From: a virus
IMG/VR virus record: IMGVR_UViG_3300032182_000276
Coordinates: 1 to 21,188 of that record
Direction: 5' to 3' (one strand)
DNA: 21,188 bases
The notes beneath the pieces were generated by a model. That model ran no database searches, was not told where the DNA came from, and saw only the letters and a list, made by a program, of their open reading frames with translations. Shown piece by piece: positions 634 through 18,992 of this stretch. Positions within the stretch are counted from its first letter, which is position 1, and the number at the start of each line of letters is the position of its first letter. The position numbers and the translations under genes were made by a program.

Positions 634-3609
634 ATGGCAAGAAGAAAAGAAGAACAATACGTATTTAATGCTACTACCGGAACGGTAAAAGTTCCTGGTC
701 ATTTGAACATTAACGATGTACTTTCTATCATTAATGTAACCACTGGCGAAACTATCTATACTCTAGGGGATCCAGCAAAAACTTTTGTTAGTAAAGTTCA
801 CTCACATCCTTTACTAGGAGATGATCCAGACTTCCCGTGGTCTATTGATGGTGTTTGTACATTTGATTTACTTTACGATACTAGTATCAATGGTCAGGAC
901 ACAGACGAATTAATTATCTTTGTTGAAGATGAAAGAAAAGGTCTTGTAGTTAGACCTTTCGATGCAGCGGTTGATGCTGTAGAAAGGATCAAAGTATCCA
1001 ATCCAGAGACTCTTATTGATGCTGATTTTGAGTATGGATTACAAAGTTCAAAATGGCACAATGTAGGATTCAATACAGGGTATCCATCTTTCTCGGAAGG
1101 AATTGGTGTTCCTCTGGAAGTTACAAGTGTATCAGCAGTAGGAAACACAGTTACTGTTACAGTCGCTAATAGTGCTGCTCTAGCAGCAAATACTGCTTTT
1201 ACTATCACTGGATTATCTGAAGGATTTTCAGATGCTGAAGGATCTTTCGTTGTAAGTGAGCAAGTTGACGCTAGTAACTTTAGATATAAAGCAAAAGATA
1301 GTGTTGCTGGTGTATCAGTCACTCCCGTTACTACTTTAAGACCTGCTTCTATTTTTGATCAAGCAGCATTAAATCTAGAGAGATATGATTCTAACTCGGC
1401 TACCAATGACGCCGTATTAACTTTTAGAGAAGCCCATGGATTGTTCCCAGGATCTCCGTTTTTACTAGTAGATACTACAGCAGGTTCACAGGAAGAAGAA
1501 GGTCCTTTCTTTGTAACTGAGGTAATTAATGAACTTTCATTTAGATACGAAATCCCTGATGGAGTAGCAGCTAGTTCCACTGTAATCAACCCAGCTCCAC
1601 CAGCAGCACAAACTGTAATTGTATACGCTATTTCTAATTCTACATTTACCCACAGACCTTTTGATGGTGGTATTTTAATCAATACATTCTATCCAATAGC
1701 AGGTCTTGAAGCAAAGAGACAGACCAAGAAATATTTCAGATATCAGTCCGGTAAAGGTGTAAATTTCTCAACAGGAGCTTTATTCACACCAGCATATGAT
1801 ATTACCGGAGCAGAATACACAGCATCAAACCAATTACGTGTCACTACTGATATTGCTCATGGATTTCAAGTAGGTGTAAAAGTTGCTTTATCTGATATAA
1901 CAACTACGGGATACAACTCACCCATCAACAACTACATCTATACTCCATATACAATTACAGCTATTATCGATAGCAATACTTTTGAAATTACAGACTTTGG
2001 TCCTGGTGGGTTAAATGATGGATTGAATATTGGACTAGTAGCAGGAACAACTGCTTCTTTAGGTATATCTCCGAAAGTGGTAGTTACTGAATGGAGTGGA
2101 GCAGCAGTCCGTACAGGTATGTTTGATGATGCTAATGGTCCATATTGGGAATATGATGGTGTATCTTTATACGCCTGTGTTAGATCCAGTACAACACAAG
2201 TTACAGGGACTGTAGCGTTAACAAATGGAAGTAATATCATTACAGGAACCAATACAAGGTTTGGAGATCAATTTACTGCCGGAAATAAAGTTCAAATTAA
2301 AGGACAAGTTTACGAAGTAACTAATGTAGCTAGTTCCACAGAGATGTATGTCAATCCGGCATACAGAGGTGTAGACAGCAGCAATTCCAAGATATCTTTA
2401 ATTACAGAATTAAGAATTCCACAATCTGAATTCAATTCAGATACTCTTGATGGAGAAGGACCATCTGGTTATTTCTTACATCCCGATAGGATGCAAATGG
2501 TCGGTATTCAATGGTCGTGGTACGGTGCTGGATATATTGATTATATGGTAAGAGGTCCTCTAGGAGATTGGATTGTTGCTCATCGTATCGGAAACTCTAA
2601 CTTCAATACAGAAGCATATATGAGATCTGGCAACCTACCAGCAAGGTATGAAGTTGTAACATCATGTCGCCATAGTAAAGTTATTGGTAGTTCTACTGGC
2701 ACAGGAAATGTCACCATTGAAGTAGCCAATGCCGACAAGTTGTTCCCTACTGATGGAGGACTTTTAACTATTAAGAGTGTTCAGGGACCAGACATACTTA
2801 CTGAAGTAGTAGAGTATGATGGTATTACCGGTAATCAAATTAGCCTATCCCAAAGAGGAGCATCTTATACAAGATTCTTATCTGGATCAAATAGAACTTT
2901 TAGTGGAGATACTACGGTTGGCGGTTTAGATCATCCAGTGAACTCTTCCGTTCAATTCATTGGATGTAATATTGCCCCTCAGATTTCACACTGGGGTTCT
3001 TCTGTTATCTTAGACGGAGGGTTTAAATCTGATCCTGGATTTAAATTTACAACAGCTAAAGATACGATTAGTATTCCCAGCGGAACATCACAAACTGTTC
3101 TTCTATTCAGACCAGCTCCGGCTGTAAGTAATGGATTACCTGGAGAAGTTGGCGAGAGAGAACTTCTTAATAGATCTAGAATTACATTAACATCTATCGA
3201 AGTAGCAACTCAGGATTCCACTAATAGTTTTGCCCCTCGTAGATATGAATTAGCAGGAGTTTTAAATCCATCAAGTATAGATCCAGAAACAGTTATTTGG
3301 GAGAGTGCTCAATCTCAAGAGTATGCTGACAACGGAGTTCCATCTTTAGGTTATCAACCATCATTTGCTCAGTACGAAACTACTACTATTGCAAAACCAG
3401 AAGGGGGAGAACTTTTATTTAAATTTACTACTGCTAACCGTTCTGAAATTTTTGATCTAACTAATGTTAAAAATTTAGAGAACTCTATCTTAGGTGGAAA
3501 TGGATTATATCCAAACGGACCAGAAGTTCTTGCCCTCTCGATTACAAATAAATCGACCGATCTCGTATCTTTCGATATCGTATTATCCTGGAAGGAGGCA
3601 CACTCATAA
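634..3609 (+). CDS. Large virion structural protein B1 (paralogue of 11314-14268)
   Basis: This 991-aa protein is mostly predicted beta structure, with about four cysteines and no visible signal peptide or membrane segment. It matches the 984-aa protein at 11314-14268 along its whole length. Shared blocks include the N-terminus (RKEE, VPGH versus IPGH), DFPWSIDG, DAVERIKVSNP, an AHGxxPGSP segment near residues 270-280, a GTNTRFG beta-domain near 525-580, a SWYG(A/S)G block with RGPLG near 625, RSGNLP(A/S)RYE, and a C-terminus with NLENS, YP(N/D)GPEVL and DIVL. The family is recognisable as a cyanophage virion structural protein of unresolved position, plausibly a baseplate or tail-fibre component. 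The ATG lies 9 bases after the previous stop. The end carries an AAGGAGG that serves the next gene, whose ATG overlaps the stop (TAATG). Confidence 0.85.
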   Translation: MARRKEEQYVFNATTGTVKVPGHLNINDVLSIINVTTGETIYTLGDPAKTFVSKVHSHPLLGDDPDFPWSIDGVCTFDLLYDTSINGQDTDELIIFVEDERKGLVVRPFDAAVDAVERIKVSNPETLIDADFEYGLQSSKWHNVGFNTGYPSFSEGIGVPLEVTSVSAVGNTVTVTVANSAALAANTAFTITGLSEGFSDAEGSFVVSEQVDASNFRYKAKDSVAGVSVTPVTTLRPASIFDQAALNLERYDSNSATNDAVLTFREAHGLFPGSPFLLVDTTAGSQEEEGPFFVTEVINELSFRYEIPDGVAASSTVINPAPPAAQTVIVYAISNSTFTHRPFDGGILINTFYPIAGLEAKRQTKKYFRYQSGKGVNFSTGALFTPAYDITGAEYTASNQLRVTTDIAHGFQVGVKVALSDITTTGYNSPINNYIYTPYTITAIIDSNTFEITDFGPGGLNDGLNIGLVAGTTASLGISPKVVVTEWSGAAVRTGMFDDANGPYWEYDGVSLYACVRSSTTQVTGTVALTNGSNIITGTNTRFGDQFTAGNKVQIKGQVYEVTNVASSTEMYVNPAYRGVDSSNSKISLITELRIPQSEFNSDTLDGEGPSGYFLHPDRMQMVGIQWSWYGAGYIDYMVRGPLGDWIVAHRIGNSNFNTEAYMRSGNLPARYEVVTSCRHSKVIGSSTGTGNVTIEVANADKLFPTDGGLLTIKSVQGPDILTEVVEYDGITGNQISLSQRGASYTRFLSGSNRTFSGDTTVGGLDHPVNSSVQFIGCNIAPQISHWGSSVILDGGFKSDPGFKFTTAKDTISIPSGTSQTVLLFRPAPAVSNGLPGEVGERELLNRSRITLTSIEVATQDSTNSFAPRRYELAGVLNPSSIDPETVIWESAQSQEYADNGVPSLGYQPSFAQYETTTIAKPEGGELLFKFTTANRSEIFDLTNVKNLENSILGGNGLYPNGPEVLALSITNKSTDLVSFDIVLSWKEAHS

Positions 3610-5174
3610 TGGCATTAACTAGAGGACAAATTCTATCACAACCAGTAGTACAAGATAACGATGGTGTTACTGGTGGATCTATCACTCTTAGAGATTTAAA
3701 TCTAAGTAATGAGATTACTTTTAAAGCACCGGATGATGTAACTAGTAATTACGATATCATATTGCCTGCTGCTCCACCAGCAGTGTCTGGTTATATCTTA
3801 TCTTTCCAAACAGATGGAACTGCTTCTTTTATTGAAAACACTCCTACTCCGGGTGGAGCAGCGATCGGTGCTATTCAGTATAGAAATAATTTAGGTGCTC
3901 AGGCAGGCGCAGATTATGCCCTATACAATGACTCAAATCAATCTATTGATCTTGTATATAACGGAGCAACTCCAACTCCAATTAGATGGTTGGATGCTGA
4001 TACTCCTACTGCAAACTTCGCTGCTTTCCAAGCACCATCCGATATTACTAGAAATTATACAGTAGATTTACCAGCACTGATTCCAGGAACAACAGACACC
4101 ACTGATTCTGTAGGATATGTACTTAAAATTGCCTCTCATAGTGATCAATCTGTTCCTGGTGACACCACTGCTGTATTAGAGTGGGGTCCTCCTATTACTG
4201 GAGACAACCAATCACAAGGAGCTCAGTTTACTGTACAAATAGCAGGTGATGCTGCTGGTGAGTTTGCTTCTGCTACTGATCTGATTGCTTACAATTCCAC
4301 TAATGCATTAGTTTATACTTTTACAGATGGTGATGTAGCTAGTCCAGATGGAACTTTAACAATTACGCCACCCATCGGATCCATTGAGATTGGGACAGAT
4401 GAGGTTCTTACTAGAACTGGTTTAGGATCTACTGTTTTATCCTCTAGTCTCACTAGTGTAGGAGTACAAGCAAAAGTTTTACCTAGCGGCGGTAATGGGA
4501 TAGAAGTCAACAACACTGTTGAATCTGCTGGCGATTTAATACTAAACGCCGGGGGTACTGGAGCAGCTGCTGTTGTTATTCAGGGTACTAATGGAGCTGG
4601 CGTAGGAAGAATAGAGATTGAAGATCAAGAGCCGACACCAAACTCTGTTGCTATAGATGTACCCGCTAACGCAGGTACATCGTATACCCTGACTTTGCCA
4701 GCGAGCATCACCACTCCTAGAAATGGAATGGCATTGAGTTTTAATAGTGGTTACAATGCTACATTTATTGATGATAGAAAAACTCTAAACTTTACTATGG
4801 ATGGTGGCGGGACCACAACTCTACAGCAAGGATTAAAAGGATTTTATAGAGTTTTCTTAGAAGAAGGTTATGTAATAGAAAGTGTAAGTCTTGTACTAGA
4901 AGATCCTACAGATGGTCCATCTGTTACTATCAACAGAGCATCTGCTGGAGCTTTTAACGGATCTAACGCTACACTACTATATTCTTTTAACGCTGGTTCG
5001 GCAGTGTCTGGATCTGCTACAAATAATGCTGGTGGTGCTATCACCACAGATAATGGAATCAGCGGGACTTCTCTAGCAAATGGCGATGTATTAGAGTTTA
5101 ACTTGGGAAATGGTCCATTCAATTCAACATTTGCCACAATCAGTATGATCTTGAGACCTGCTTCACTGACCTAA
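3609..5174 (+). CDS. Beta-repeat fibre-like virion protein C1 (paralogue of 14265-15575)
   Basis: This 521-aa protein is rich in Thr, Ser, Gly and Ala with no cysteine, as is usual for phage fibres. It begins MALTRGQIL, matching MTQSRGQIL of the 436-aa protein at 14265-15575. Three copies of a motif resembling AP-x3-T-x2-YT-x2-LP occur near residues 36-53 (ITFKAPDDVTSNYDIILP), 137 and 347. A C-terminal domain starting at KTLNFTMDGGG and ending near ISMILRP matches KTLNFVMDSG and MALIMRP in the paralogue. This type of terminal beta-domain is found at the end of many phage fibre proteins. The ATG overlaps the upstream stop by one base, suggesting translational coupling to B1. A fibre role is inferred; whether it binds the host is not shown by the sequence. 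Confidence 0.78.
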   Translation: MALTRGQILSQPVVQDNDGVTGGSITLRDLNLSNEITFKAPDDVTSNYDIILPAAPPAVSGYILSFQTDGTASFIENTPTPGGAAIGAIQYRNNLGAQAGADYALYNDSNQSIDLVYNGATPTPIRWLDADTPTANFAAFQAPSDITRNYTVDLPALIPGTTDTTDSVGYVLKIASHSDQSVPGDTTAVLEWGPPITGDNQSQGAQFTVQIAGDAAGEFASATDLIAYNSTNALVYTFTDGDVASPDGTLTITPPIGSIEIGTDEVLTRTGLGSTVLSSSLTSVGVQAKVLPSGGNGIEVNNTVESAGDLILNAGGTGAAAVVIQGTNGAGVGRIEIEDQEPTPNSVAIDVPANAGTSYTLTLPASITTPRNGMALSFNSGYNATFIDDRKTLNFTMDGGGTTTLQQGLKGFYRVFLEEGYVIESVSLVLEDPTDGPSVTINRASAGAFNGSNATLLYSFNAGSAVSGSATNNAGGAITTDNGISGTSLANGDVLEFNLGNGPFNSTFATISMILRPASLT

Positions 5175-5180
5175 TAAATT

Positions 5181-6068
5181 ATGACTTATTATATTGATCT
5201 TACCAATGTATCTCCAAATAATTATAGAGTTTTACGACCCAATGCTTTTCTTGGCGTAGGACTTTTAAATGGAACTCTTGACTATAATTTAACACCCGGA
5301 GTTGGTGTATTGGCAAATGATTGGGATAACACTAACTTAAATAGATTATTTGAAGACTCTGTAGATCCAACTGCCAACACTCCTTTGTCCGGATTTGGAG
5401 GTGGATCATCTCAAAATCCTCCCAATGCTGTAGCAAATCAAAGAACGTCTCAACCAAACTTAGACGCTCCAACCGGTTTTAATACATTGGGATATGGACC
5501 TATTGTTTATAATGGAAATGGACAAAACCTTGCCTCTATGCTATTAGGATTTCCTTCGTTATCAGAAATTCCTGATGCTGGTATTGTATCCACCGCTCCT
5601 GCCGGTAGTGCCTTACCATCTACACATATTGTTAGATTACTTGTCGATCCAGTCAACAGTACGTTTGGTGATCAACTAGGAGGGGCAACGGGTGGAGGGT
5701 CTGCTACTGTTGCTACACTAGAAGTATCATTACGATATGGCGCTACAGCGACCACAATAGGAACTCCTATTGCTACTTTACCATTACCAAATGGAAACCC
5801 TTTGGATATAGTTAGAAACACTACCCCACTAGGAAGTGGAAGACTAGGAACTGAATTTACATATGAGTTTACTGTTCCATCAGCATTGGATTATTCCAAC
5901 CTAGGGTCTAGAAGATTTCAGAATGTCAATATTTTTATCAACCAAATTGCCGGAAATGCCGGTGGTAACAACAGAAGATCTTTTCCTAGAATTTGGGGTG
6001 TAGAGCTCTACGTAAATACTTTGTTGATCAACCCATACGAACCACAAAATAGGGGTTATTTGATCTAG
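5181..6068 (+). CDS. Probable virion protein D1, last gene of cassette 1
   Basis: This 295-aa protein is Gly/Asn/Thr-rich, lacks cysteine and has no signal or membrane segment. I do not recognise the family. The second half (from about residue 170) alternates hydrophobic strands with loops (ATLEVSLRYG, FTYEFTVPSA, NVNIFINQIAG, RIWGVELYVN), which suggests a jelly-roll or other beta-sandwich domain. It starts 6 bases after the C1 stop and ends where a late-promoter octamer begins, so it closes the first structural unit. In cassette 2 the equivalent slot holds the 179-aa protein at 15577-16116, which has a similar strand-rich layout ending in a hydrophobic strand (FLLIDYVEWV versus RIWGVELYV). 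Homology between the two is a guess from position and layout. Confidence 0.7.
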   Translation: MTYYIDLTNVSPNNYRVLRPNAFLGVGLLNGTLDYNLTPGVGVLANDWDNTNLNRLFEDSVDPTANTPLSGFGGGSSQNPPNAVANQRTSQPNLDAPTGFNTLGYGPIVYNGNGQNLASMLLGFPSLSEIPDAGIVSTAPAGSALPSTHIVRLLVDPVNSTFGDQLGGATGGGSATVATLEVSLRYGATATTIGTPIATLPLPNGNPLDIVRNTTPLGSGRLGTEFTYEFTVPSALDYSNLGSRRFQNVNIFINQIAGNAGGNNRRSFPRIWGVELYVNTLLINPYEPQNRGYLI

Positions 6069-6076
6069 CATAAATA
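6069..6076 (+). promoter_or_regulatory. T4-type late promoter (CATAAATA)
   Basis: CATAAATA starts directly after the D1 stop codon and lies 25 bases before the ATG at 6102. It matches the T4 late -10 element TATAAATA, recognised by gp55-type late sigma, except at the first base. It would make the propeller and methyltransferase genes a separate late unit. Confidence 0.65.
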
Positions 6077-6101
6077 CTAGAAACTGATTGAACTTTATTT
6101 C

Positions 6102-7172
6102 ATGGCATTAGATTCATCATGGGGACGAGGGTTTGCTCCCGTTCGTCCTATCAAGCGCCCTTATTTTGTAAAATCGGTGCTGGAAAACGGAGGAGATATC
6201 ACACCGCTGTATGTAGATTCAAGTGAAACTAGAGGAACTGGTCTGACCAATGGATCTATTGCTGTTGTTGACGACAAAATTCTTGTTAATCTAAGGCACG
6301 TAGAGTATACTTTGTATCATGCTGAAAAAGTAAAGTATGCTCACCCATGGGGTCCGGTAGTATATCTACACCCCGAAAATGACTGGAGACTAAAGACAAA
6401 TAATTTTATAGGAACTGTCAATGAAAACTTTGATGGATTTTCTTCCTATTCTAAAGTAGATACTAGTACATGGGATGTCGATCCTCTGTGGGATTTTGTT
6501 GGATTAGAAGATGCTAGATTAGTTCAGTGGGATGGATCTTTATATCTTACCGGAGTAAGACGAGACACTACCAAGAATGGTGTTGGTAGGATGGAGTTGT
6601 CTCGTATTCTACAAAATCAAAACGGCAAGTGGAAAGAAGTAAGTAGAGAAAGAATTCCTATTCCAGGAGAACATATAGACGCTATTGATACAGGACCTTC
6701 CTATTGTGAAAAAAATTGGATGCCTATCGTAGATAAACCATTTCATTATGTAAAGTGGTGTAATCCTGTACAGGTTGTCAAATACTGCCCAGAGAAAAAA
6801 GAAACAACTAATGTACATCTAGATGAATCTACATACAAAAAACTAGATTTTGATTTTAGAGGAGGATCTCACGTTATACCTTACAAAAAAGATTATTATA
6901 TCTGTCTAACTCACATAACTAATTTATTTAAAAGTGAGACTGGTAGAAAAAATTGTGTATACAGACATAGGTTTGTTATATTTGATAAAAACTGGAACTT
7001 AGTAAAGTATACAGATGAATTAAATTTCATGGGATGCCACGTAGAGTTTTCTTGTGGTATGGCATTCCACAAAGGAAATTACTTAATACCATTCGGAACT
7101 CAAGACAATAGTTCATATCTTCTAAAGATTCCCGAAGATTATTTTGATAAGTATATTGGAGATTTGAAATGA
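6102..7172 (+). CDS. GH130-like five-bladed beta-propeller protein (putative glycan-active enzyme)
   Basis: This 356-aa protein carries motifs that resemble the GH130 mannoside phosphorylase/hydrolase superfamily and its uncharacterised relatives: GLEDARL (134-140, compare the usual G-x-EDPR), EKNWMPI (203-209), RGGSHVIPY (253-261), YRHRFVIFD (287-295) and VEFSCGMAFH with FGTQD (314-335). In that fold the blades surround a sugar-binding pocket. The ED of the EDAR motif is kept, but the usual Pro is Ala. There are eight cysteines, against almost none in the flanking structural proteins, which fits a cytoplasmic enzyme better than a virion fibre. The next gene overlaps its stop codon (ATGA), so the pair is probably translated together. 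Substrate and reaction are unknown. It could modify a glycan or only bind one; family membership is by motif recognition only. Confidence 0.68.
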   Translation: MALDSSWGRGFAPVRPIKRPYFVKSVLENGGDITPLYVDSSETRGTGLTNGSIAVVDDKILVNLRHVEYTLYHAEKVKYAHPWGPVVYLHPENDWRLKTNNFIGTVNENFDGFSSYSKVDTSTWDVDPLWDFVGLEDARLVQWDGSLYLTGVRRDTTKNGVGRMELSRILQNQNGKWKEVSRERIPIPGEHIDAIDTGPSYCEKNWMPIVDKPFHYVKWCNPVQVVKYCPEKKETTNVHLDESTYKKLDFDFRGGSHVIPYKKDYYICLTHITNLFKSETGRKNCVYRHRFVIFDKNWNLVKYTDELNFMGCHVEFSCGMAFHKGNYLIPFGTQDNSSYLLKIPEDYFDKYIGDLK

Positions 7173-8407
7173 AAGAACTAGTTATTAAATTTGCTCAGGA
7201 TAGTGAAAATGCAGAACTAAATTTTGATCTAGCATATGCTTACCATGAAAGAGGTCAGACTGCTTCTGCTATGTCTTACTATCTCAGGGCAGCAGAAAGA
7301 GGATCTGATTTGTTAGCATACGAATCTTTGATTCGAGCACATTATTGTACACAAAAGCAAAGGGAAAGAGATTTTACAGCAAAAGGTTTTCTCAAACAAG
7401 CACAACTTGTATGCCCAAGAAGACCAGAGGCATATTATCTACTAGCAAAATATCATGTTAGCAAAAATGAACACTCAGAAGCATATGTTCAACTTAAGTT
7501 GGCAAAAGAGTTTTGTAGTTTTAACGAAGCACCATTAAAGACAAAGGTAGGTTATAAAAATAAGATTCAATTTGAAAAAGAACTTATTCATGCCGCCTGG
7601 GAATGGGATAAGAATTCGGAGTCTAGAAGTATCTTAAAAGAGTTATTGTCTTCTTATGAGTTTTCTGTTGCTGATGAGGAGGATAAAAAAGATGTCCACG
7701 ATATTATTGATCAGATAGGTATTTACTCCAGAGACGAAGCATATTGTCAATACACCAAACATTTACACTCTAGATTATGTTATCCTTTTAATGGATCATC
7801 GGATATTGAAAGAAACTTCTCACAAGTATATCAAGACTTGTTTGTACTATACATGAACAAAGGTAAAAGAGATGGAACTTACTTAGAGGTTGGATGTGGT
7901 CCTGCTTTCCAAGGAAGTAATACAGCACTACTCGAAGAGTTTGGTTGGAAAGGTATTTCTATCGATAAAGATCCACAATATGCTATGGAGCATAACAAAT
8001 TTAGATCTAATACAACAATCTTTGATGATGCATTAACAATAGATTATTCGTCTTTATTGAAAAAACATTTTCCTGACAAGAAAGAGATTGATTATTTACA
8101 ACTAGATTTAGAACCAGCAAGGAATACTTTTGAGTGTCTTCTGAGTATTCCTTTTGATGAATATAAATTTGGTGTCGTTACATATGAGCACGATTATTAC
8201 ATCGACCCGACTAAATCTTATAGAAAAAAATCAAGAAGATATTTAGAGATGATGGGATATAAGTTAGTTGTGGCAGATGTATCTCCTGACGGATTTGGAT
8301 CTTTTGAAGATTGGTGGGTACACCCAGACATGATTGATGAGTATCAAATTGCTCTTATTCAATCCTTGGATAAAACCTGTAATATTAACAAACATATGTT
8401 AAAATGA
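7169..8407 (+). CDS. TPR-repeat protein fused to FkbM-like SAM-dependent methyltransferase
   Basis: This 412-aa protein appears to have two domains. Residues about 15-115 contain TPR-like helical repeats (NFDLAYAYHERGQTASAMSYY, then AYYLLAKYHVSKNEHSEAYV). From about residue 215 there is a Rossmann-type methyltransferase core of FkbM (Methyltransf_21) character: FSQVYQDLFV (217-226), the SAM-binding motif YLEVGCG (238-244), LLEEFGWKGISIDKDP ending at 269 with the acidic residue that typically holds the ribose, and DYLQLDLEP (308-316) followed by YEHDYY (339-344). FkbM-family enzymes mostly O-methylate sugars or small molecules. The start overlaps the stop of the GH130-like gene and the end overlaps the next start (ATGA at both junctions). 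Together with its neighbour this suggests glycan modification, but the acceptor is unknown. Confidence 0.75.
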   Translation: MKELVIKFAQDSENAELNFDLAYAYHERGQTASAMSYYLRAAERGSDLLAYESLIRAHYCTQKQRERDFTAKGFLKQAQLVCPRRPEAYYLLAKYHVSKNEHSEAYVQLKLAKEFCSFNEAPLKTKVGYKNKIQFEKELIHAAWEWDKNSESRSILKELLSSYEFSVADEEDKKDVHDIIDQIGIYSRDEAYCQYTKHLHSRLCYPFNGSSDIERNFSQVYQDLFVLYMNKGKRDGTYLEVGCGPAFQGSNTALLEEFGWKGISIDKDPQYAMEHNKFRSNTTIFDDALTIDYSSLLKKHFPDKKEIDYLQLDLEPARNTFECLLSIPFDEYKFGVVTYEHDYYIDPTKSYRKKSRRYLEMMGYKLVVADVSPDGFGSFEDWWVHPDMIDEYQIALIQSLDKTCNINKHMLK

Positions 8408-11313: not shown

Positions 11314-14268
11314 GTGGCACAAAGAAAAGAAGAAGTCTACAAGTTTGACGTATCAGCAAAAACAGTAAAGATTCCTGGTCACGTTGAACAGAAAAACCTT
11401 GTACTGATTACCAATGTAGATAGAGGACAGATTATCTACAGTCAATTTGATCCATCAAAAGGATCTGCTAGATCACACGAACATATCTGGCCAGGAGATC
11501 CTACTTTCCCTGATGCGGATTTCCCATGGTCGATTGATGGCACCTGTGTATTTACACTAGATGCTGATCTTTCGGGAATGGCAGATACAGATCAGTTGTC
11601 TATTCTCATTGATGACTATAGAACTGGAACTAAGTTTAGACCATGGGATCATGGTCTAGATGCTGTCGAAAGAATGAGAGTGTCTAACCCACAGTCACTC
11701 ATTAATACAGACTTTGAGTTAGGTCTACAAGATAGTAAGTGGGAGAACATTGGATATAATAGAAACCATCCAACATTCTATGCTTACGGTGGAGATGTTA
11801 TCACTCTAACTGGATTGTCATCTGACGGAGCAACACCATCTACGATTACAGGAACGATTGCGTCTGGTGGTCCCTTGGCAGGAGAAGTTATCTCTATTAA
11901 AGGAACCAAATATGCTTTGGCAAATGGTAACTACTTATGTGAAACTGGCAACGGAACTTCGTTTACATATAAAGCAGTAGGAACAGTTCCATCTGGTGAC
12001 ATTACAACCGATTTCCAGGAAATAAGACTTGGTGATATTTTTAGCGGGGCGACACTTCCTGTCCTTTCTACTTTAGTTGGAGATGGTAATGGAGGTAGCA
12101 CGACCCCAGGATTGATGACTGCCACCTTTGCTGATGCTCATGGTATGCTTCCAGGATCTCCGATTTTAGTATTTGATGGTACAACTCCTGCAGCTGTTGA
12201 TTCTTATGAGGGTAGTTTCTTTGTTAAGCAGGTAATCAATGCTACTCAGTTTACATACGAAACGCCGCCCAATACTACTGCCGTACCAAATGGTGCTATT
12301 ACTAATCCTATTGGCAATGTTAAAGTTTATGGAAGAAATTCTAGTTTTGCTACTAGTCGTCCGTTTGATGGTGGATCCGAAATCGGAACTGGTTTAGGTA
12401 TTCATGGACTTAAAGTTGTAAGACAAACAAAAGATTACTTCAGATATCAATCTGGTAAAGGTATTTTCTGGAGCACCGCGTTCTCATTCAAACCTACATT
12501 ACAATGTATCGGTGCTAGTTCTGATGGATCAACTGTTACTATTACTTCTGAAGAAATTCATGGACTACAAAAAGGATGTAAGATTTTCTTAGAGGGTATT
12601 ACTACTTCTGGATATTATGGACAGTATGTTGTTACTAGCATCACAGGATCAGAAACTTTTGAAGCTCAACCTATTGGATTTTCTGCTCCTGGTGCTGGCA
12701 CTGCTGTTATCAGTGCCGATGCTAGATTTGTTGTTGATGAATGGTCTGGTTCTTCTATTCGTGCTGGACTATTTGATGACCAGAATGGTATGTTCTGGGA
12801 GTATGATGGAAGAAAGATTAACCTTTGTAGAAAATCTACTACTAGAAAGCTAGCGGGAACATGTTCTATTAGTGGACATACCGTAACAGGAACTGGAACT
12901 AAGTTTACCGAACAACTAATGGTAAACAATATCATTGTTATTAGAGGAGCATCATTTATTGTTACTAGTATTGCTAGTGATACTTCTTTAACTATTGCTA
13001 CAGGAACAAATAGATTCCCTGTTGCTGTAAATGATGCTGTTATTACCAAGATGGAAGTTCTAAGAATTCCACAGGAAGATTGGAACTATGATACTTGTGA
13101 TGGATCAGGTCCGTCTGGTTTCCTTCTTAGAAATAGATATACCTCTATGGTAGGTATTAACTATTCTTGGTATGGATCTGGTTTTATTGATTTTATGATT
13201 CGTGGTCCTTTGGGAGAGTGGATTAAAGTTCACCGTATGCCAAACCATAACATTTATGATAAAGCATATTTGAGATCTGGTAATTTACCATCTAGATATG
13301 AAATTACAAACTGTGGTGGATTTGGTAGTTTAGATGGACAAGTTGTATCTACCGATACCACTATTCAACTAAATGACGTTACTTACTTCCCTGATCCTGT
13401 AGCAGGATATCCAGAAATTATTGGTATTACTTCTTTAAATGGAGCAAATACAGAGACTGAAGTTATCAGTTACACGGGTGTAAATAGAACAACAAATGAA
13501 TTGACTGGATGCGTTAGAAGAACATCATACGAAAAAACTTTAAATGGTGTTACATACGGATCTGGAGGTACATTTAGTGCCTTTGAAGGAAGCAACAACT
13601 CATGGACTCACCCAGATAAATCTGCTGTTTTATTGTTAGGAACTACATTTGCCGGAAGACTTCAGTCATGGGGTGCTTCGGTTAGTATGGATGGTGGATT
13701 TGATAAGGTTCCTGGATTTGTTTTCTCGTACAAAGTATCATCTCAGATTGCTACTGATGATAGTGAATCTGTATTGGCATTTAGATTATGTCCTGCCGTA
13801 TCTAACTCTTTCCCACAAAGATTTGGTGTTAGAGAAATCATCAACAGACAAGAACTTAGATTAAGTTCTATTGAGGTTACTAATGTTGATGGTAACGAGA
13901 TTGAAGTTACTGGTCTATTGAATCCATCTAACTTAGGATCTCCTTCTTATGTTAGATCCGGTGGACAAACTATTGGTGGTGCTAAAACATTCCAACAAAC
14001 ATTTACTGAGATTGCTACTGCCGGGGGAATATTAACGACAAATACAGCACCAACAAATGCCGACCTGTTGTTTACTTTCTTCAATAAAGGTACTGGAACT
14101 ACAGAATATGATCTAAGTAATTTAAAGAACTTAGAAAACTCTGTTCAGGGTGGTGATAATGTATATCCAGATGGACCAGAAGTTTTGATTATCTACGTCA
14201 CTAATCTAGATACCGGTGCTGCGGCTAATGTTGATATTGTTCTACGTTGGGAGGAGGCAGGAGCATGA
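11314..14268 (+). CDS. Large virion structural protein B2 (paralogue of 634-3609)
   Basis: This 984-aa protein starts with GTG, preceded by a strong AGGAGG about 10 bases upstream and located one base after the A2 stop. It is a full-length paralogue of B1: RKEEVYKF, DFPWSIDG, DAVERMRVSNP, ADAHGMLPGSP, the GTGTKF beta-domain near residues 510-570, SWYGSG with RGPLGEW near 617, RSGNLPSRYE, and a C-terminus with NLENS, YPDGPEVL and DIVLRWEEAGA. Conservation is highest in the N-terminal 150 residues, the SWYG block and the C-terminal 60 residues; the regions between are divergent, as expected for an old duplication with diversification. The stop overlaps the C2 start (ATGA). Role inferred as baseplate- or fibre-associated virion protein. 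Confidence 0.85.
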   Translation: MAQRKEEVYKFDVSAKTVKIPGHVEQKNLVLITNVDRGQIIYSQFDPSKGSARSHEHIWPGDPTFPDADFPWSIDGTCVFTLDADLSGMADTDQLSILIDDYRTGTKFRPWDHGLDAVERMRVSNPQSLINTDFELGLQDSKWENIGYNRNHPTFYAYGGDVITLTGLSSDGATPSTITGTIASGGPLAGEVISIKGTKYALANGNYLCETGNGTSFTYKAVGTVPSGDITTDFQEIRLGDIFSGATLPVLSTLVGDGNGGSTTPGLMTATFADAHGMLPGSPILVFDGTTPAAVDSYEGSFFVKQVINATQFTYETPPNTTAVPNGAITNPIGNVKVYGRNSSFATSRPFDGGSEIGTGLGIHGLKVVRQTKDYFRYQSGKGIFWSTAFSFKPTLQCIGASSDGSTVTITSEEIHGLQKGCKIFLEGITTSGYYGQYVVTSITGSETFEAQPIGFSAPGAGTAVISADARFVVDEWSGSSIRAGLFDDQNGMFWEYDGRKINLCRKSTTRKLAGTCSISGHTVTGTGTKFTEQLMVNNIIVIRGASFIVTSIASDTSLTIATGTNRFPVAVNDAVITKMEVLRIPQEDWNYDTCDGSGPSGFLLRNRYTSMVGINYSWYGSGFIDFMIRGPLGEWIKVHRMPNHNIYDKAYLRSGNLPSRYEITNCGGFGSLDGQVVSTDTTIQLNDVTYFPDPVAGYPEIIGITSLNGANTETEVISYTGVNRTTNELTGCVRRTSYEKTLNGVTYGSGGTFSAFEGSNNSWTHPDKSAVLLLGTTFAGRLQSWGASVSMDGGFDKVPGFVFSYKVSSQIATDDSESVLAFRLCPAVSNSFPQRFGVREIINRQELRLSSIEVTNVDGNEIEVTGLLNPSNLGSPSYVRSGGQTIGGAKTFQQTFTEIATAGGILTTNTAPTNADLLFTFFNKGTGTTEYDLSNLKNLENSVQGGDNVYPDGPEVLIIYVTNLDTGAAANVDIVLRWEEAGA

Positions 14269-15575
14269 CACAATCAAGAGGTCAGATATTACTTAACCCA
14301 GAAGTTATCAGTAGTGTTGCTGCTGACGGTGGTGCTGTTATCTTATTTGAGGGTTCAACTAATGGCGAGAATGCCATCACATTTAAGGCACCAGATGCAG
14401 TAACAGCAGACTATACATTCACCCTACCAGACGGCACAGGAACCCCAGGACAGGCGCTAACAACCGATGGTAATGGTGTGACATCATGGACCACTGTTAC
14501 TGCTGCTTCCGGAGGCACCAGCGGAACTTTCCAGTATAATGATGGTGCTAGTGGATTTGCTGGTCTATCTACGATGACCACAGATGGCACTAATATCAGT
14601 ATTGGTGCTGGTACGCTTACAACAGAAAGCGACATTATTTTTTCTGATGGGACAGGAACTCTAACACTAACAAGTCCTACATATACAGCAAACACTACAT
14701 ACACTTTACCTGTTCAGGGTACAGCGTCTGCTGGAGCTGCTCTAATCGTATCAGCATCTCCTACACCATCTACAACAGCATTGTCTTTGGAGTGGGGTAC
14801 ACCATCAGGAACTAACCAAGATCCGGGTGGGGCTGGTGCTTCTGGTGTTAGAGAAGTTCAATATAATGTAGGTGGATTATTTACAGGATCTACTGAGTTT
14901 GCTTACGATGAAACTACAGATATCCTAAGTGTTCCTTCTTTATCAACTACAAACATTGATATCTCTACTAATAGCATCACTTCTACAAATACTAATGGTA
15001 ACATCAACTTAGATGCTAATGGTACTGGTGATGTTATCTTGTCTGGCGGTACAGATTTAGCATTGACTGGATCAACAAGCGGAACAGTACGTTTTAATGC
15101 TCCTGCTACTGTATCCACACCATATACCATTACATTACCAACTGCTCCACCGAGTGTAATCAGTAGACTACAATATTCTGTAGCTAACCCTACGGTTGCT
15201 AAGTTTGTAGCTGATACAAAGACACTAAACTTTGTAATGGACAGTGGGGATCCATCAACACCCGCGTATGTTGCTTTGGGTGTTAGAGGAACTGTTTATG
15301 TAGATGCTGCTTATACTATTATTGGGTGGAAGTTAATCGGAGAAGCAGCTGCTGCCTTTAGTATTAATGTGGATCAAGGAACGTTTCCTACTCCCCCAGC
15401 AGCTCCGACATACAGCACAGTTATCACAGGTGCTTCATTAGGAGCAACTGATTTTACTGCTGAATCTGGTGTGTTAAATATCTCTGTAGCAGCTGGTGAT
15501 GTTTTACAGTTTGATGTTCAAAGTAATACTACCCAGACCAATGTTACAATGGCACTTATTATGAGACCTGATTGA
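14265..15575 (+). CDS. Beta-repeat fibre-like virion protein C2 (paralogue of C1)
   Basis: I place the start at the ATG at 14265, overlapping the B2 stop. It gives an N-terminus (MTQSRGQIL) that matches C1 and has a GGAGG 7 bases upstream; a TTG at 14247 in the same frame would add six residues without support. The 436-aa protein has the repeat ITFKAPDAVTADYTFTLP near residue 38, further copies near 132 and 275, and a SGTFQYNDGASGF segment of a type common in phage fibres. The C-terminal domain begins KTLNFVMDSG and ends MALIMRPD, as in C1, and resembles terminal domains of many phage fibre proteins. A fibre role is inferred from this and from context. Confidence 0.78.
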   Translation: MTQSRGQILLNPEVISSVAADGGAVILFEGSTNGENAITFKAPDAVTADYTFTLPDGTGTPGQALTTDGNGVTSWTTVTAASGGTSGTFQYNDGASGFAGLSTMTTDGTNISIGAGTLTTESDIIFSDGTGTLTLTSPTYTANTTYTLPVQGTASAGAALIVSASPTPSTTALSLEWGTPSGTNQDPGGAGASGVREVQYNVGGLFTGSTEFAYDETTDILSVPSLSTTNIDISTNSITSTNTNGNINLDANGTGDVILSGGTDLALTGSTSGTVRFNAPATVSTPYTITLPTAPPSVISRLQYSVANPTVAKFVADTKTLNFVMDSGDPSTPAYVALGVRGTVYVDAAYTIIGWKLIGEAAAAFSINVDQGTFPTPPAAPTYSTVITGASLGATDFTAESGVLNISVAAGDVLQFDVQSNTTQTNVTMALIMRPD

Positions 15576-15576
15576 T

Positions 15577-16116
15577 ATGGCAACAACAACAGTAGTAGCA
15601 AATAGTTTTACCGCTATCAACAATGTTAGCGTTGTTAATGATTTCGATCCACTCAACCCAAACGACCCATACGATTACAAGACTGATGATACCACTTACA
15701 CAGTTGCTGGCAACAATGGAAACGTAGAAGCTAGATTCGGATTTCCTGCTGCCACTGGAGGTAATGGAACCTTAACAACAGGAGCAGGAGTTCAAAGATT
15801 TAATGTAGTCGTAGTAGGGGATGGCGGAAATAACGCTATCGAGTATGGTCTACAGTTAAGTGAAAACGGGAATGCTATTGGTAATGTTATTACCCAAACA
15901 ACTATACCCGCTAATAATACAACTGAAAGAACTGCTACGATGACTTGGGATGCTAGCGGAAGAACTAATGGTCAGATTGAAGTTTTAGTTATACAATCTA
16001 ACGGTGGAACAGGAAGGGCATCTAACAGAGCTTTCTTGTTAATTGACTATGTAGAATGGGTAGCAGAACTAGATGATGCTGTATCGCCCGGTAAGTCCCG
16101 AGCTATATGGATCTGA
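15577..16116 (+). CDS. Probable virion protein D2, last gene of cassette 2
   Basis: This 179-aa cysteine-free protein starts one base after the C2 stop. From about residue 65 it shows a run of alternating hydrophobic strands (QRFNVVVVGDG, EYGLQLSENG, ERTATMTWDA, QIEVLVIQSNGG, FLLIDYVEWV), consistent with a beta-sandwich like those of carbohydrate-binding or lectin-type domains. I do not recognise the family. It ends inside the late promoter that drives the neck genes. It occupies the slot that D1 fills in cassette 1. Functional assignment beyond virion association by context is not supported. Confidence 0.68.
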   Translation: MATTTVVANSFTAINNVSVVNDFDPLNPNDPYDYKTDDTTYTVAGNNGNVEARFGFPAATGGNGTLTTGAGVQRFNVVVVGDGGNNAIEYGLQLSENGNAIGNVITQTTIPANNTTERTATMTWDASGRTNGQIEVLVIQSNGGTGRASNRAFLLIDYVEWVAELDDAVSPGKSRAIWI

Positions 16117-16142: not shown

Positions 16143-17222
16143 ATGGCACAACCAACAACTCGTGTCGAGTTCACAGAATACTGTTTAAGGAAACTGGGAG
16201 CACCAGTGTTAGAAATCAACGTTGATGATGATCAAGTTGATGATCTAATTGATGATGCTATTCAACTCTACCAGGAGTATCATTTTGATGGTGTTGAAAG
16301 AATGCTCCTTAAGCACCTTGTTACTGCTGATGATGTAGAGAGATTTAACAGAGCAGAATTTATTAATACAAAAGATGGAAATGATGGTGGAGTAACTTAC
16401 ACTGTAACAAGTACAGGATTTGGATATCTTGACGGAGAGCAAACAAATGTAGCTACTGATTATCCTGCTGGTGTTACTGGTACTGGATCAGGTTTAACAG
16501 TTGACATTAAAGTTACTGGTGGAGTGGTAACTGAAGTTCTAATAAATGAACCCGGTCAGGGATATGTAGTAGGGGATGAATTAACTATTGGTACTAATAC
16601 TTCTGCTAGGATTAGAATTGATTCTATTCAAAGTGATTCTAGATGGCAGAATAGAGGTAACTTTTTTCCTATCCCGGATCATGTGATTGGGGTATCTAAA
16701 GTATACGGAATCTCATCCGGATTGTCGGATAACGAGATGTGGGGATTTGCCAACCAGTATTTTCTAATGGATGTATTCTCAGTTAACTCTGGATATACAT
16801 TCTCTAACTTTGACATGTCTTACTACTACATGATTAAGCAATGGTTTGAAACTTTAGACATGGTTATCAATACAGGTAATCTAGTTAACTATAGATTTAA
16901 TAAAAAGCAAGACAGATTATACTTAGATATATCTGTTAATCGTATTAAAGAAGGACAATACATTTTAATTGATTGTCATAGAGCACTAGATCCATCTGAT
17001 TGGAGTCAAGTTTGGAATGACAGTTGGTTGAAGAGATATGCTCCTGCTCTTATTAAAAGACAATGGGGACAGAACATGATTAAATTTAACAATGTTCAAC
17101 TTCCCGGTGGCATTACAATGAACGGTCGTCAGTTATATGAGGATGCCGAAAAAGAAATTCTTATGCTGGAATCAAAACTACGTGATGAATATCAACTTCC
17201 ACCTATGGACATGATCGGATAA
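16143..17222 (+). CDS. 13: Neck protein gp13 (head completion) with inserted beta-domain
   Basis: This is the T4 gp13-type neck protein, which with gp14 closes the portal of the filled head and prepares it for tail joining. The N-terminus (TRVEFTEYCLRKLGAPVLEI, then a DDDQVDDLIDDAIQLYQEYH helix, residues 7-47) and the region after residue 168 (RGNFFPIPDHVIGVSKVYGI, later WFETLDMVINT and ALDPSDWSQVWNDSWLKRY) follow the family. Between about residues 76 and 163 lies a Gly/Thr-rich stretch with GTGSGLTVDIKV and INEPGQGYVVGDELTI, a motif typical of cyanophage fibre-type beta-repeats. This makes the protein 359 aa against about 309 in T4, with the two family halves lying either side of the insert. 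Synteny with gp14, gp15 and gp16 makes the call firm. Confidence 0.9.
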   Translation: MAQPTTRVEFTEYCLRKLGAPVLEINVDDDQVDDLIDDAIQLYQEYHFDGVERMLLKHLVTADDVERFNRAEFINTKDGNDGGVTYTVTSTGFGYLDGEQTNVATDYPAGVTGTGSGLTVDIKVTGGVVTEVLINEPGQGYVVGDELTIGTNTSARIRIDSIQSDSRWQNRGNFFPIPDHVIGVSKVYGISSGLSDNEMWGFANQYFLMDVFSVNSGYTFSNFDMSYYYMIKQWFETLDMVINTGNLVNYRFNKKQDRLYLDISVNRIKEGQYILIDCHRALDPSDWSQVWNDSWLKRYAPALIKRQWGQNMIKFNNVQLPGGITMNGRQLYEDAEKEILMLESKLRDEYQLPPMDMIG

Positions 17223-17223
17223 A

Positions 17224-18168
17224 ATGCCTACCAGTCACTACTTCCCACAGAATTACAAAAATAACAACAGCGAAACTAACCTGTATCAGGATTTAGTTGA
17301 TGAGCAGATCAAGTTGTTCGGAACAGATATCTATTATATCAACAGAACAACTTACACTGAGAATTTTACTAATGATGTAATCTATTCTGAGTATAAGGAT
17401 AAGATTGTTATCGAAGCTATGCTACAGAACGTAGAAGGTTTTGGTGCTCAGTCTGAGTTTATCTCTAAGTTTGGATTAAGAGTTACTGACGAAATAACCT
17501 TCACTATATCTGCTAGAAGGTGGGATGAAGAGTATACCAGACTTCCTAATATCAAGGTAGACAATAGACCTAATGAGGGAGATCTTGTATTTTTTCCATT
17601 GACAGGTGATCTATACGAGATCAAGTTTGTCGAAAGAGAAGCACCATTCTATCAGTTAGGAAAATTATATTTCTACACAATGACATGTGAGATTGCCGAG
17701 ATTGGTAATGATGACATCGAGACTGGTATTCCAGACATCGATAAGATTGAAGCGGAGAGAGACTCTGCTATAACATTATTCTTACAGGATGGTGGCACCG
17801 GCAATTACTACGACGGAGATACTGTAGAATTCCACACGGTAGGAGCAGGACCAGTATACATCCCAACCGGAATCTTTGCTGAGGTTGCTGAGTGGGATGC
17901 ACCAGAACAAGCACTCAAACTTATCAACATGACAGGTGACTTTGATCCTGAGTATGCTGTACTGAAAGATAGCACTAACTTGTTCTCTGGCACGGTCAGA
18001 ACTGATGGTGTATGGATCATCGGACCACAGGATAATACTGTGTACATTGATGATACAAACTCAGAATATGATGATAATAAATACATAGAAGACGCTGCCG
18101 ATGAAATTCTTGATTTTACTGAATTGAATCCGTTTGGCGAAGTAGGAAACCTTGATGATATAATCTAA
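17224..18168 (+). CDS. 14: Neck protein gp14 (head completion)
   Basis: This 314-aa protein (T4 gp14 is about 256 aa) is the second neck protein, acting with gp13 at the head-tail connector. Family features include the N-terminal SHYFPQNYKNN, LVDEQIKLFGTDIYYINR (residues 24-41), NEGDLVFFPLTGDLYEIKFV (117-136), YQLGKLYFYTMTCEI (143-157), DDIETGIPDID (163-173) and the acidic C-terminal AADEILDFTELNPFG (291-305). Residues about 180-280 (LFLQDGGTGNYYDGDTVEF and onward) appear to be an extra domain placed before that tail, which accounts for the length difference. It starts one base after gp13 ends and its stop overlaps the gp15 start (TAATG). Assignment rests on motif recognition and synteny. Confidence 0.9.
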   Translation: MPTSHYFPQNYKNNNSETNLYQDLVDEQIKLFGTDIYYINRTTYTENFTNDVIYSEYKDKIVIEAMLQNVEGFGAQSEFISKFGLRVTDEITFTISARRWDEEYTRLPNIKVDNRPNEGDLVFFPLTGDLYEIKFVEREAPFYQLGKLYFYTMTCEIAEIGNDDIETGIPDIDKIEAERDSAITLFLQDGGTGNYYDGDTVEFHTVGAGPVYIPTGIFAEVAEWDAPEQALKLINMTGDFDPEYAVLKDSTNLFSGTVRTDGVWIIGPQDNTVYIDDTNSEYDDNKYIEDAADEILDFTELNPFGEVGNLDDII

Positions 18169-18992
18169 TGTTAGGCGCTCATTTTTATAACCAGGCAATT
18201 AAAAAAACAGTTGTTGGGTTTGGAACATTATTCAACAACTTAGCTGTAAAGGACATTGATCCCCAAGATCCTACTAAAGTTCTAGGACAACAGAAAGTTG
18301 GATTGGCATACGCACCAAAAGAAAAGTTCTTAACAAGATTAGAAGAGAATCCAGATCTCAGTAAAACTTCTATTACTTTGCCCAGAATGTATTTTGAGAT
18401 GACTGGCATCTCTTATGATGGCGGTAGAAAAACTAGTCCCATTCAAAAATACCAGACTATCATTACAGATAATGGTGACGAGGTAAGAGCACAGTTTGTT
18501 CCAGTACCATACAATATTGATTTTGAGTTAGGTATTTTAGCAAGAAATCAAGATGATGGATTACAATTAATAGAGCAAATTTTACCGTATTTTCAACCAC
18601 AATTTAATCTCACAATTAACTTTATCCCTGATATGGGAGAGAAAAGAGATGTTGCTATTTTCCTCAACAGTGTTGACTATTCGGATGAATGGGATGGCAA
18701 CTTTAACCAAAGAAGATATTTAAATTGGACATTGAGATTTACAGTTAAATCTTATATCTACGGTCCCTTCAACACTGCTGATATCATTAGAAAGGCTATC
18801 ATTTATGAGCGTCAAGGTGAGGTTGGTGTTGCTGATCGATCTACTAGATTAACATACACACCTGTCGCCCAAACAGACTTAAATAATGATGGTGTAGTCG
18901 AAGGTATCGGTGATCCACCCGGAGCTGATGATTTACTACTAGGACCTTCTGATGACTTTGGATTCAGCGGTGATATTGAAAACTTCTTTTAA
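18168..18992 (+). CDS. 15: Tail completion / sheath-stabilising protein gp15
   Basis: This is a 274-aa protein, almost the same length as T4 gp15 (272 aa). In T4, gp15 forms the hexameric ring that caps the tail tube and sheath and joins the tail to the neck. Recognisable parts are the start GAHFYNQAIKKTVVGFGTLF, PRMYFEMTGISYDGGRK, VPVPYNIDFELGILARNQDD, EQILPYFQPQFNLTINFIPD and the YLNWTLRFTVKSYIYGP segment. The ATG overlaps the gp14 stop by one base, so the two are probably translationally coupled. The C-terminal 40 residues are acidic and Gly/Asp-rich, as is usual in marine members. Nothing is truncated. Confidence 0.92.
   Translation: MLGAHFYNQAIKKTVVGFGTLFNNLAVKDIDPQDPTKVLGQQKVGLAYAPKEKFLTRLEENPDLSKTSITLPRMYFEMTGISYDGGRKTSPIQKYQTIITDNGDEVRAQFVPVPYNIDFELGILARNQDDGLQLIEQILPYFQPQFNLTINFIPDMGEKRDVAIFLNSVDYSDEWDGNFNQRRYLNWTLRFTVKSYIYGPFNTADIIRKAIIYERQGEVGVADRSTRLTYTPVAQTDLNNDGVVEGIGDPPGADDLLLGPSDDFGFSGDIENFF

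Follow-up and report, generated by a model that had tools for sequence, protein, structure and literature searches.

The head-tail adaptor is among the most conserved parts of the myovirus virion. Shuffling of domains between structural proteins of phages is a well-documented process, reported for the most part in fibers, spikes, and lysins. We examined a DNA of 21,188 nucleotides from a marine virus of the cyanophage type (IMG/VR record IMGVR_UViG_3300032182_000276, positions 1 to 21,188; here called the window), in which an initial annotation made from the sequence alone had proposed an extra domain within a gp13-type neck protein. The locus raises three questions: whether the segment is a domain in its own right, where such a domain could have come from, and what it might do on the neck of the virion.

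A gp13-type adaptor in the gene order 13-14-15-16

The ORF at 16143..17222 (plus strand) encodes a protein of 359 amino acids, which belongs to the gp13-type neck proteins: residues 2-352 match phrog_211, "head-tail adaptor Ad2," with an E value of 3.2e-43, and phmmer aligns it with T4 gp13 from the PDB (9mkb/9lu4) at an E value of 1.4e-22. A Pfam scan of the protein gave no match. An AlphaFold2 model of full-length gp13 has a mean pLDDT of 68 and a pTM of 0.49; at this modest global confidence, it is predicted to adopt the adaptor fold, a helix bundle with a beta-domain. The model matches T4 gp13 (9lu7) with a Z score of 15.9 and an rmsd of 2.4 over 114 residues, and it also resembles other adaptors, such as the P1 connector (Z score, 9.3).

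Directly 3' of gp13 are genes for a gp14-type neck protein (17224..18168, plus strand; phrog_460, E value 4e-91; Pfam T4_neck-protein, 1e-21), a gp15-type tail sheath stabilizer (18168..18992, plus strand; Pfam T4-gp15_tss, 4e-79), and the small terminase, giving the order 13-14-15-16. T4 gp13 (9mkb, 9lu4-9lu7), a member of the same adaptor family, likewise precedes gp14 and gp15, and it aligns with the window protein over the N-terminal helices and the C-terminal region. A helical core with an outer-ring beta-domain is also found in the neck-1 proteins (Milano gp14, T7 gp11; classes 3-4), as described in the available portion of PMC10491603. The window protein differs from them in adding a further domain on the beta-domain, for which that portion of the source describes no counterpart.

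A separately folding beta-domain interrupts gp13

Alignments of gp13 proteins with and without the additional segment placed it at approximately residues 82-165 (16386..16637, plus strand), with edges that are uncertain by several codons, since the loop resists alignment. Between two conserved positions, H58 and P178, there are 119 residues in the window protein and 36 in its nearest relatives without an insert (276 amino acids), a net insertion of 83 residues. The coordinates proposed at the outset, 16368-16631, were correct to within a few codons, and both motifs cited with them lie inside the insert. These are GTGSGLTVDIKV (residues 113-124; 16479..16514, plus strand), with a G-x-G-x-GLT core that is nearly invariant in an alignment of 54 domain sequences, and PGQGYVVGDELTI (residues 137-149; 16551..16589, plus strand), the second of two GxGY motifs, conserved in the same alignment. 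The first GxGY motif, GFGY (residues 92-95; 16416..16427, plus strand), is conserved in an alignment of seven inserts, so that the two alignments together establish a pair of GxGY hairpins and the G-x-G-x-GLT segment in the insert.

In the whole-protein model the insert forms six strands at residues 84-162, and the flanking linkers, residues 73-83 and 165-169, have pLDDT values below 50. Modeled alone from the 54-sequence alignment, the insert again gave six strands, with a pLDDT of 80.2 and a pTM of 0.67. Structure prediction, which had been named as a check, is therefore in favor of a unit separate from the gp13 core fold, able to fold alone and joined by linkers of low confidence.

The insert is a member of a family of cyanophage structural domains

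Compared with the PHROG profiles in isolation, the insert matched phrog_6005 (E value, 3.3e-7), phrog_697 (4.1e-7), and phrog_32294 (2.6e-5), families of structural and baseplate-wedge proteins. Because the insert alone gives these matches, it is not a chance segment; it belongs to the GxGY-type cyanophage structural domain that they define. Together with the separate predicted fold, the matches bear out the proposal of an extra beta-domain of the fiber or baseplate kind. A homing element or an intein was also considered, and on sequence the segment appears instead to match structural domains.

A profile of the seven inserts also matched other genes (E values down to approximately 1e-14), including those for large structural proteins of other loci that carry the domain in tandem, in up to six copies. 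Within the window, gp13 is the only carrier (E value of the next best match, 1.1). A Foldseek search of the BFVD with the domain model returned cyanophage fiber, structural, and baseplate-wedge proteins, with TMq values mostly around 0.7; 14 matches had E values of 0.001 or better, at 25-40% identity. The GxGY-type repeat domains (phrog_697, 6005, 32294, and 438; in BFVD, for example, the S-SM2 fiber E3SIS4) thus share sequence family and predicted fold with the insert. In fiber and wedge proteins they usually occur in tandem within large proteins, whereas the window has a single copy within a connector protein.

Among the best 80 loci found with the insert profile, 31 have a domain-carrying ORF that ends 4-10 nt before the gp13 frame, and in 11 the match is gp13 itself. 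In other contigs the ORF that immediately follows gp13, at the gp14 position, gave weak matches to the domain in its C-terminal half, with E values of 1e-4 to 1e-3 (L047:1631-3052, L106:1592-2770, and 5136-6314 in both L110 and L115).

Resemblance to domains of known structure was weaker. Pfam gave only subthreshold matches to the insert: Gp18_dom_I (PF22639), for which the best score was 17.4 bits (contig L006) against a cutoff of 27, and the phage Ig-like families Big_12 (E value, 0.092) and Big_11 (1.2). The second GxGY stretch resembles the T4 sheath protein gp18, again below threshold (E value, 0.18), and in a VIA comparison the domain model matched gp18 domain I with a Z score of 3.5 and an rmsd of 4.2-4.4 over 84 residues, level with EF-Tu-type barrels. 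The best VIA score for the model, 4.4, was to EF-Tu-type barrels, a similarity that we read as an arrangement common among small barrels. When the domain profile was compared with PDB sequences, no E value was better than 0.17, and Foldseek with the domain model found no PDB entry at 0.001. Domain I of T4 gp18 (3fo8/3foa), a protruding, exposed domain, is accordingly a lead only, weakly similar in motif and fold at a level where every match is below threshold.

The insertion site corresponds to a tight turn in the swing domain of T4 gp13

T4 gp13 offers a structural map. According to the available portion of a 2025 preprint (PMC12270204), its helix bundle comprises residues 3-51 and 239-300; its swing domain spans 52-192, with an anchor region (90-157) making contact with portal and capsid; and domain III (190-239) binds fibritin. 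Twelve subunits form a ring under the portal, with the swing domains as its peripheral ring. In Agrobacterium phage Milano, the beta-sandwich of neck-1 similarly forms the outer ring of a dodecamer and touches portal, capsid, and collar, as far as the accessible text of PMC10491603 describes it.

With gp13 proteins of Menderavirus, Ackermannviridae, and Straboviridae added as intermediates, three MAFFT modes agreed in aligning T4 residue 70 with window residue 66 and T4 residue 72 with window residue 173; the insert therefore occupies what in T4 is a tight turn within the swing domain. No T4 residues fall at the insertion site, which confirms by alignment that T4 gp13 lacks the domain, and the Menderavirus and Ackermannviridae proteins have none there either. 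The early T4 alignments were misleading, in that the first alignment and the phmmer pair spread T4 residues across the insert, and an hhalign comparison of the insert-bearing alignment with T4 was of low confidence in its middle part. An identity of the insert with the T4 anchor was considered and dropped, as the intermediates and all three MAFFT modes place the anchor after the insertion site.

T4 has an extra segment of its own, domain III, which is a gap in the cyanophage proteins: T4 190-230 falls opposite a gap between window residues 272 and 288 in the MAFFT alignment with intermediates, and phmmer sets T4 190-239 against window residues of approximately 237-286. Both positions are outside residues 82-165; thus, the whisker-binding segment of T4 is at another site, and the window insert does not occupy the position of domain III.

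One loop of gp13 receives unrelated domains

From 390 sources (389 loci and the window) we obtained 351 near-complete gp13 sequences, of which 240 were distinct; the remainder, partial or without a match, were dropped. Among 239 distinct proteins, T4 being excluded, the length of the insertion loop varies over a range of 130 residues, compared with at most 8 at any other site of gp13, and it is the only strongly length-variable site. The loop states were assigned from the alignment by length and by eye. Because the viral-contig scans took the best 80 loci each, and three of them were seeded with insert-bearing proteins, the counts of insert types are biased: among the 240 distinct proteins, 13 have the window's type of insert (type A), 42 have type B, found in Kanaloavirus and relatives, 15 have type C (the "GETITGGTSGA" type), one each has type D (L376) and type E (L265), and 168, T4 included, have no insert.

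The fillings differ in their affinities. Type B matches the baseplate wedge family phrog_2885 (E value, 5e-14), and type C matches the tail fiber families phrog_693 (4e-7) and phrog_9851 (4e-6); type D has a weak tail fiber match (0.014), and type E has no match among the PHROGs. Profile comparison by hhalign gave probabilities of at most 1% among types A, B, and C, so no kinship was detected; the values for B with D (14%) and D with E (24%) are higher but still weak. On these sequence comparisons, the loop holds at least three unrelated inserts and probably five, types D and E resting on one sequence each.

In 52 of the 60 phage records listed by tblastn, out of 1589 matching, the gp13 match is short (801-855 nt), in keeping with an optional insert. 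The other eight have a match of 1059-1119 nt; they are the single-cell contig AG-345-P14 and seven of Kanaloavirus type (S-CAM9, S-8S53, S-8S55, and S-8S56). In Kanaloavirus (S-CAM9, S-8S53), the type B insert lies in the same loop of gp13 as the window insert, but no kinship between the two domains was detected (hhalign, 1%); type B resembles instead the wedge family named above.

The neighboring neck proteins of Kanaloavirus are also long: gp14 has 644 and 657 amino acids and gp15 approximately 360 (L083:5121-8158, L084:5122-8191), compared with 292 and 266 amino acids in S-PM2. The extra parts of gp14 and gp15 in S-8S53 match fiber, wedge, and structural families, and the whole neck therefore seems to have acquired such domains.

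The domain probably moves by recombination within the gene

A tree was built from gp13 cores with the loop removed, using 64 rows at least 60% identical to a type A protein, which thinning at 97% reduced to 53. Type A sits in three separate gp13 lineages of this tree, three changes being needed, and a tree with type A as a single clade was rejected (p-AU, 0.00034). A quick tree of all 240 proteins called for four changes for type A and twelve for all states; from the tree we cannot tell gain from loss.

The clearest case of exchange is a mosaic gene in contig L095. Outside the loop, this insert-bearing gene resembles the insert-free gp13 of L178, with nucleotide identities of 91% over residues 1-60 and 93% in the C-terminal part. 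Its insert matches that of L093 at 90% nucleotide identity, although the flanks of those two genes are only 68-69% identical. An L178-like gp13 with an L093-like insert is what intragenic domain exchange would leave; as this is a single metagenome contig, an assembly chimera is conceivable, although it would need two joins. The similarity between L095 and L178 begins 39 nt before gp13, and the genes further upstream differ.

Over residues 76-163, the L095 and L093 inserts differ at 15 of 88 amino acids and at only approximately 10% of bases; many of the base changes therefore alter the protein. In L132 (3767-5683), a gp13 with a type A insert lacks a stop codon, and its frame stays open as an ORF of 639 amino acids, presumably through gp14; the genes may truly be fused, or the gp13 stop may have been lost to a sequencing error.

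The insert is independent of the adjacent fiber-type genes

The initial annotation had also suggested that the insert could anchor collar or whisker-like fibers. An attachment site for such structures, or for other neck fibers, would suit the surroundings of the gene. Upstream of gp13 in the window, all on the plus strand, are a large structural gene of 984 amino acids (11314..14268; phrog_5838, "virion structural protein," E value 2e-187), a fiber-type structural gene of 436 amino acids (14265..15575; phrog_10330, 1.6e-4), and, immediately 5' of gp13, a gene of 179 amino acids (15577..16116); as described above, the gene just before gp13 carries the same type of domain in 31 of the best 80 loci. 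T4 gp13, moreover, binds fibritin through a segment that cyanophage gp13 proteins lack (PMC12270204, available portion). By analogy, this shows that gp13 can acquire an appendage-binding segment, which is not proof that the window insert is one.

Several observations argue against such a role. The insert site differs from the fibritin-binding segment of T4, and no wac-like gene was found in the window with Pfam or among the nine proteins scanned against the PHROGs. Relatives of the 436-amino-acid gene occur both in contigs with the insert (L002-L004) and in contigs without it (L036-L038), and the 179-amino-acid gene likewise has relatives in contigs of both kinds. More to the point, L004, with the insert, and L037, without it, share 3.2 kb of the upstream module at 95% nucleotide identity, the encoded proteins being 97, 94, and 88% identical. 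This match extends into gp13 but has disappeared by approximately codon 80, beyond which identity is approximately 66-68%; the similarity of relatives breaks in or near the conserved 5' part of gp13, codons 1-68 before the loop (16143..16346, plus strand). Conversely, L095 and L093 have a common insert and unrelated upstream genes. Because L004 and L037 share the module and not the insert, and L095 and L093 the reverse, the insert is not tied to the adjacent fiber genes. That it travels with the upstream fiber genes, a possibility suggested by L095 and L178, was rejected on the evidence of L004 and L037.

We therefore do not follow the initial annotation in assigning an anchoring function, and regard a fiber-docking site as unlikely, although fibers encoded elsewhere could possibly bind the insert. 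In a freshwater cyanophage, neck fibers have been described on a different, fifteen-fold neck ring (PMC10966104, available portion). The accompanying suggestion that the insert decorates the neck is compatible with all of the results, if unproven.

Other features of the region were observed. Within the module shared by L004 and L037, short stretches are only 70-87% identical (approximately -1200..-1101, -1600..-1501, and -300..-201 relative to gp13), possibly from further small exchanges. The window has two paralogous pairs of fiber-type structural genes, at 634-5174 and 11314-15575; the proteins of 991 and 984 amino acids are 38.7% identical over 1031 columns, and those of 521 and 436 amino acids are 27% identical (E value, 1.6e-18). 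Between the pairs, amid structural genes, a gene at 7169-8407 gave only subthreshold matches, to TPR-like repeats and, weakly, to an FkbM-type methyltransferase.

A proposed exchangeable accessory domain on the neck

We favor an explanation in which the insert is a beta-domain, optional and exchangeable, that occupies the first loop in the outer (swing or beta-sandwich) domain of gp13. Cyanophage-type viruses would acquire, shed, and exchange domains at this single loop through intragenic recombination, drawing on a pool of small beta-modules that are also used in fibers, baseplate wedges, and gp14. If gp13 assembles into a dodecameric ring like that of T4, with the swing domain outermost, twelve inserts would be arrayed around the neck, in the zone from capsid vertex to collar; it is the outer-ring domain of T4 and Milano, combined with an insert in its first loop, that would put twelve copies at the rim. 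The position on the ring is suggested by analogy and by a gp13 model of only pLDDT 68 and pTM 0.49, and the insert is probably exposed. Because it is dispensable and can be replaced by unrelated domains, we read it as an accessory surface module, which would make extra, nonessential contacts; it may cement the zone between neck and capsid or collar, or adhere weakly to neighboring fibers or the host surface. It would serve neither the core adaptor function nor as an obligatory dock for the fiber genes just upstream. As the best overall explanation, an accessory exchangeable neck domain has in our estimate a probability of roughly 0.56.

The swing or beta-sandwich domain contacts portal and capsid in T4 and Milano (PMC12270204 and PMC10491603, available portions), and an insert located there could reach the major capsid protein or the portal wing and ease the 12-to-5 mismatch at the capsid vertex, comparable to the head-joining loop of Milano or the anchor of T4. 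We consider such a bridge improbable: a necessary bridge should not be missing in relatives that are 90% identical, nor be replaceable by unrelated domains, and the T4 anchor aligns after the insertion site.

A tolerated passenger, dropped into a permissive loop by recombination among repeat-rich structural genes and of little effect, would fit the unrelated domains at one site, their presence and absence among close relatives, and the repeats of the same domain that adjoin gp13 in other contigs. The domains are, however, in frame, and their motifs are kept over deep divergence (between the window and L131, the inserts are 49% identical in amino acids and the cores 62-65%); type B, in addition, is retained in 42 of the 240 distinct proteins of our query-biased sample. 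We give a passenger without function little credence. That the insert belongs to the core fold of gp13 and went unnoticed as most relatives diverged is already contradicted and scarcely conceivable, since no supporting evidence was found, the segment is missing from 90%-identical proteins, its linkers are of low confidence around a domain that folds alone, and T4 residues 70 and 72 flank it in all three alignment modes.

A bolder reading is offered tentatively. Here gp13 would be a display bay, a constant adaptor ring at whose first swing-domain loop unrelated fiber-type domains are traded by intragenic recombination, so that each event would fit twelve copies and change what the neck binds, be it fibers, the edge of the capsid, or the host surface.

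Domain exchange in neck proteins is already known. The lactococcal neck passage structure proteins show recent domain shuffling in a neck-located protein, as here, although in that case the exchange affects a C-terminal receptor-type domain rather than a loop within the adaptor ring (PMC10684548, available portion); tail sheath proteins, too, carry added domains (PMC9230969, available portion). In the open-access literature searched, we found no report of gp13, or an adaptor of its type, as an insertion hot spot. The gp13 loop is a natural site at which the ring tolerates some 50-130 extra residues, and the insert-bearing and insert-free alleles that are approximately 90% identical in nature are matched pairs with which the function of the neck periphery can be approached; the Kanaloavirus isolates S-CAM9 and S-8S53, which are recorded from Synechococcus hosts and whose gp13 has a type B insert, are available for the question. 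The necks of these viruses thus seem to serve as a site for trading interchangeable surface parts.
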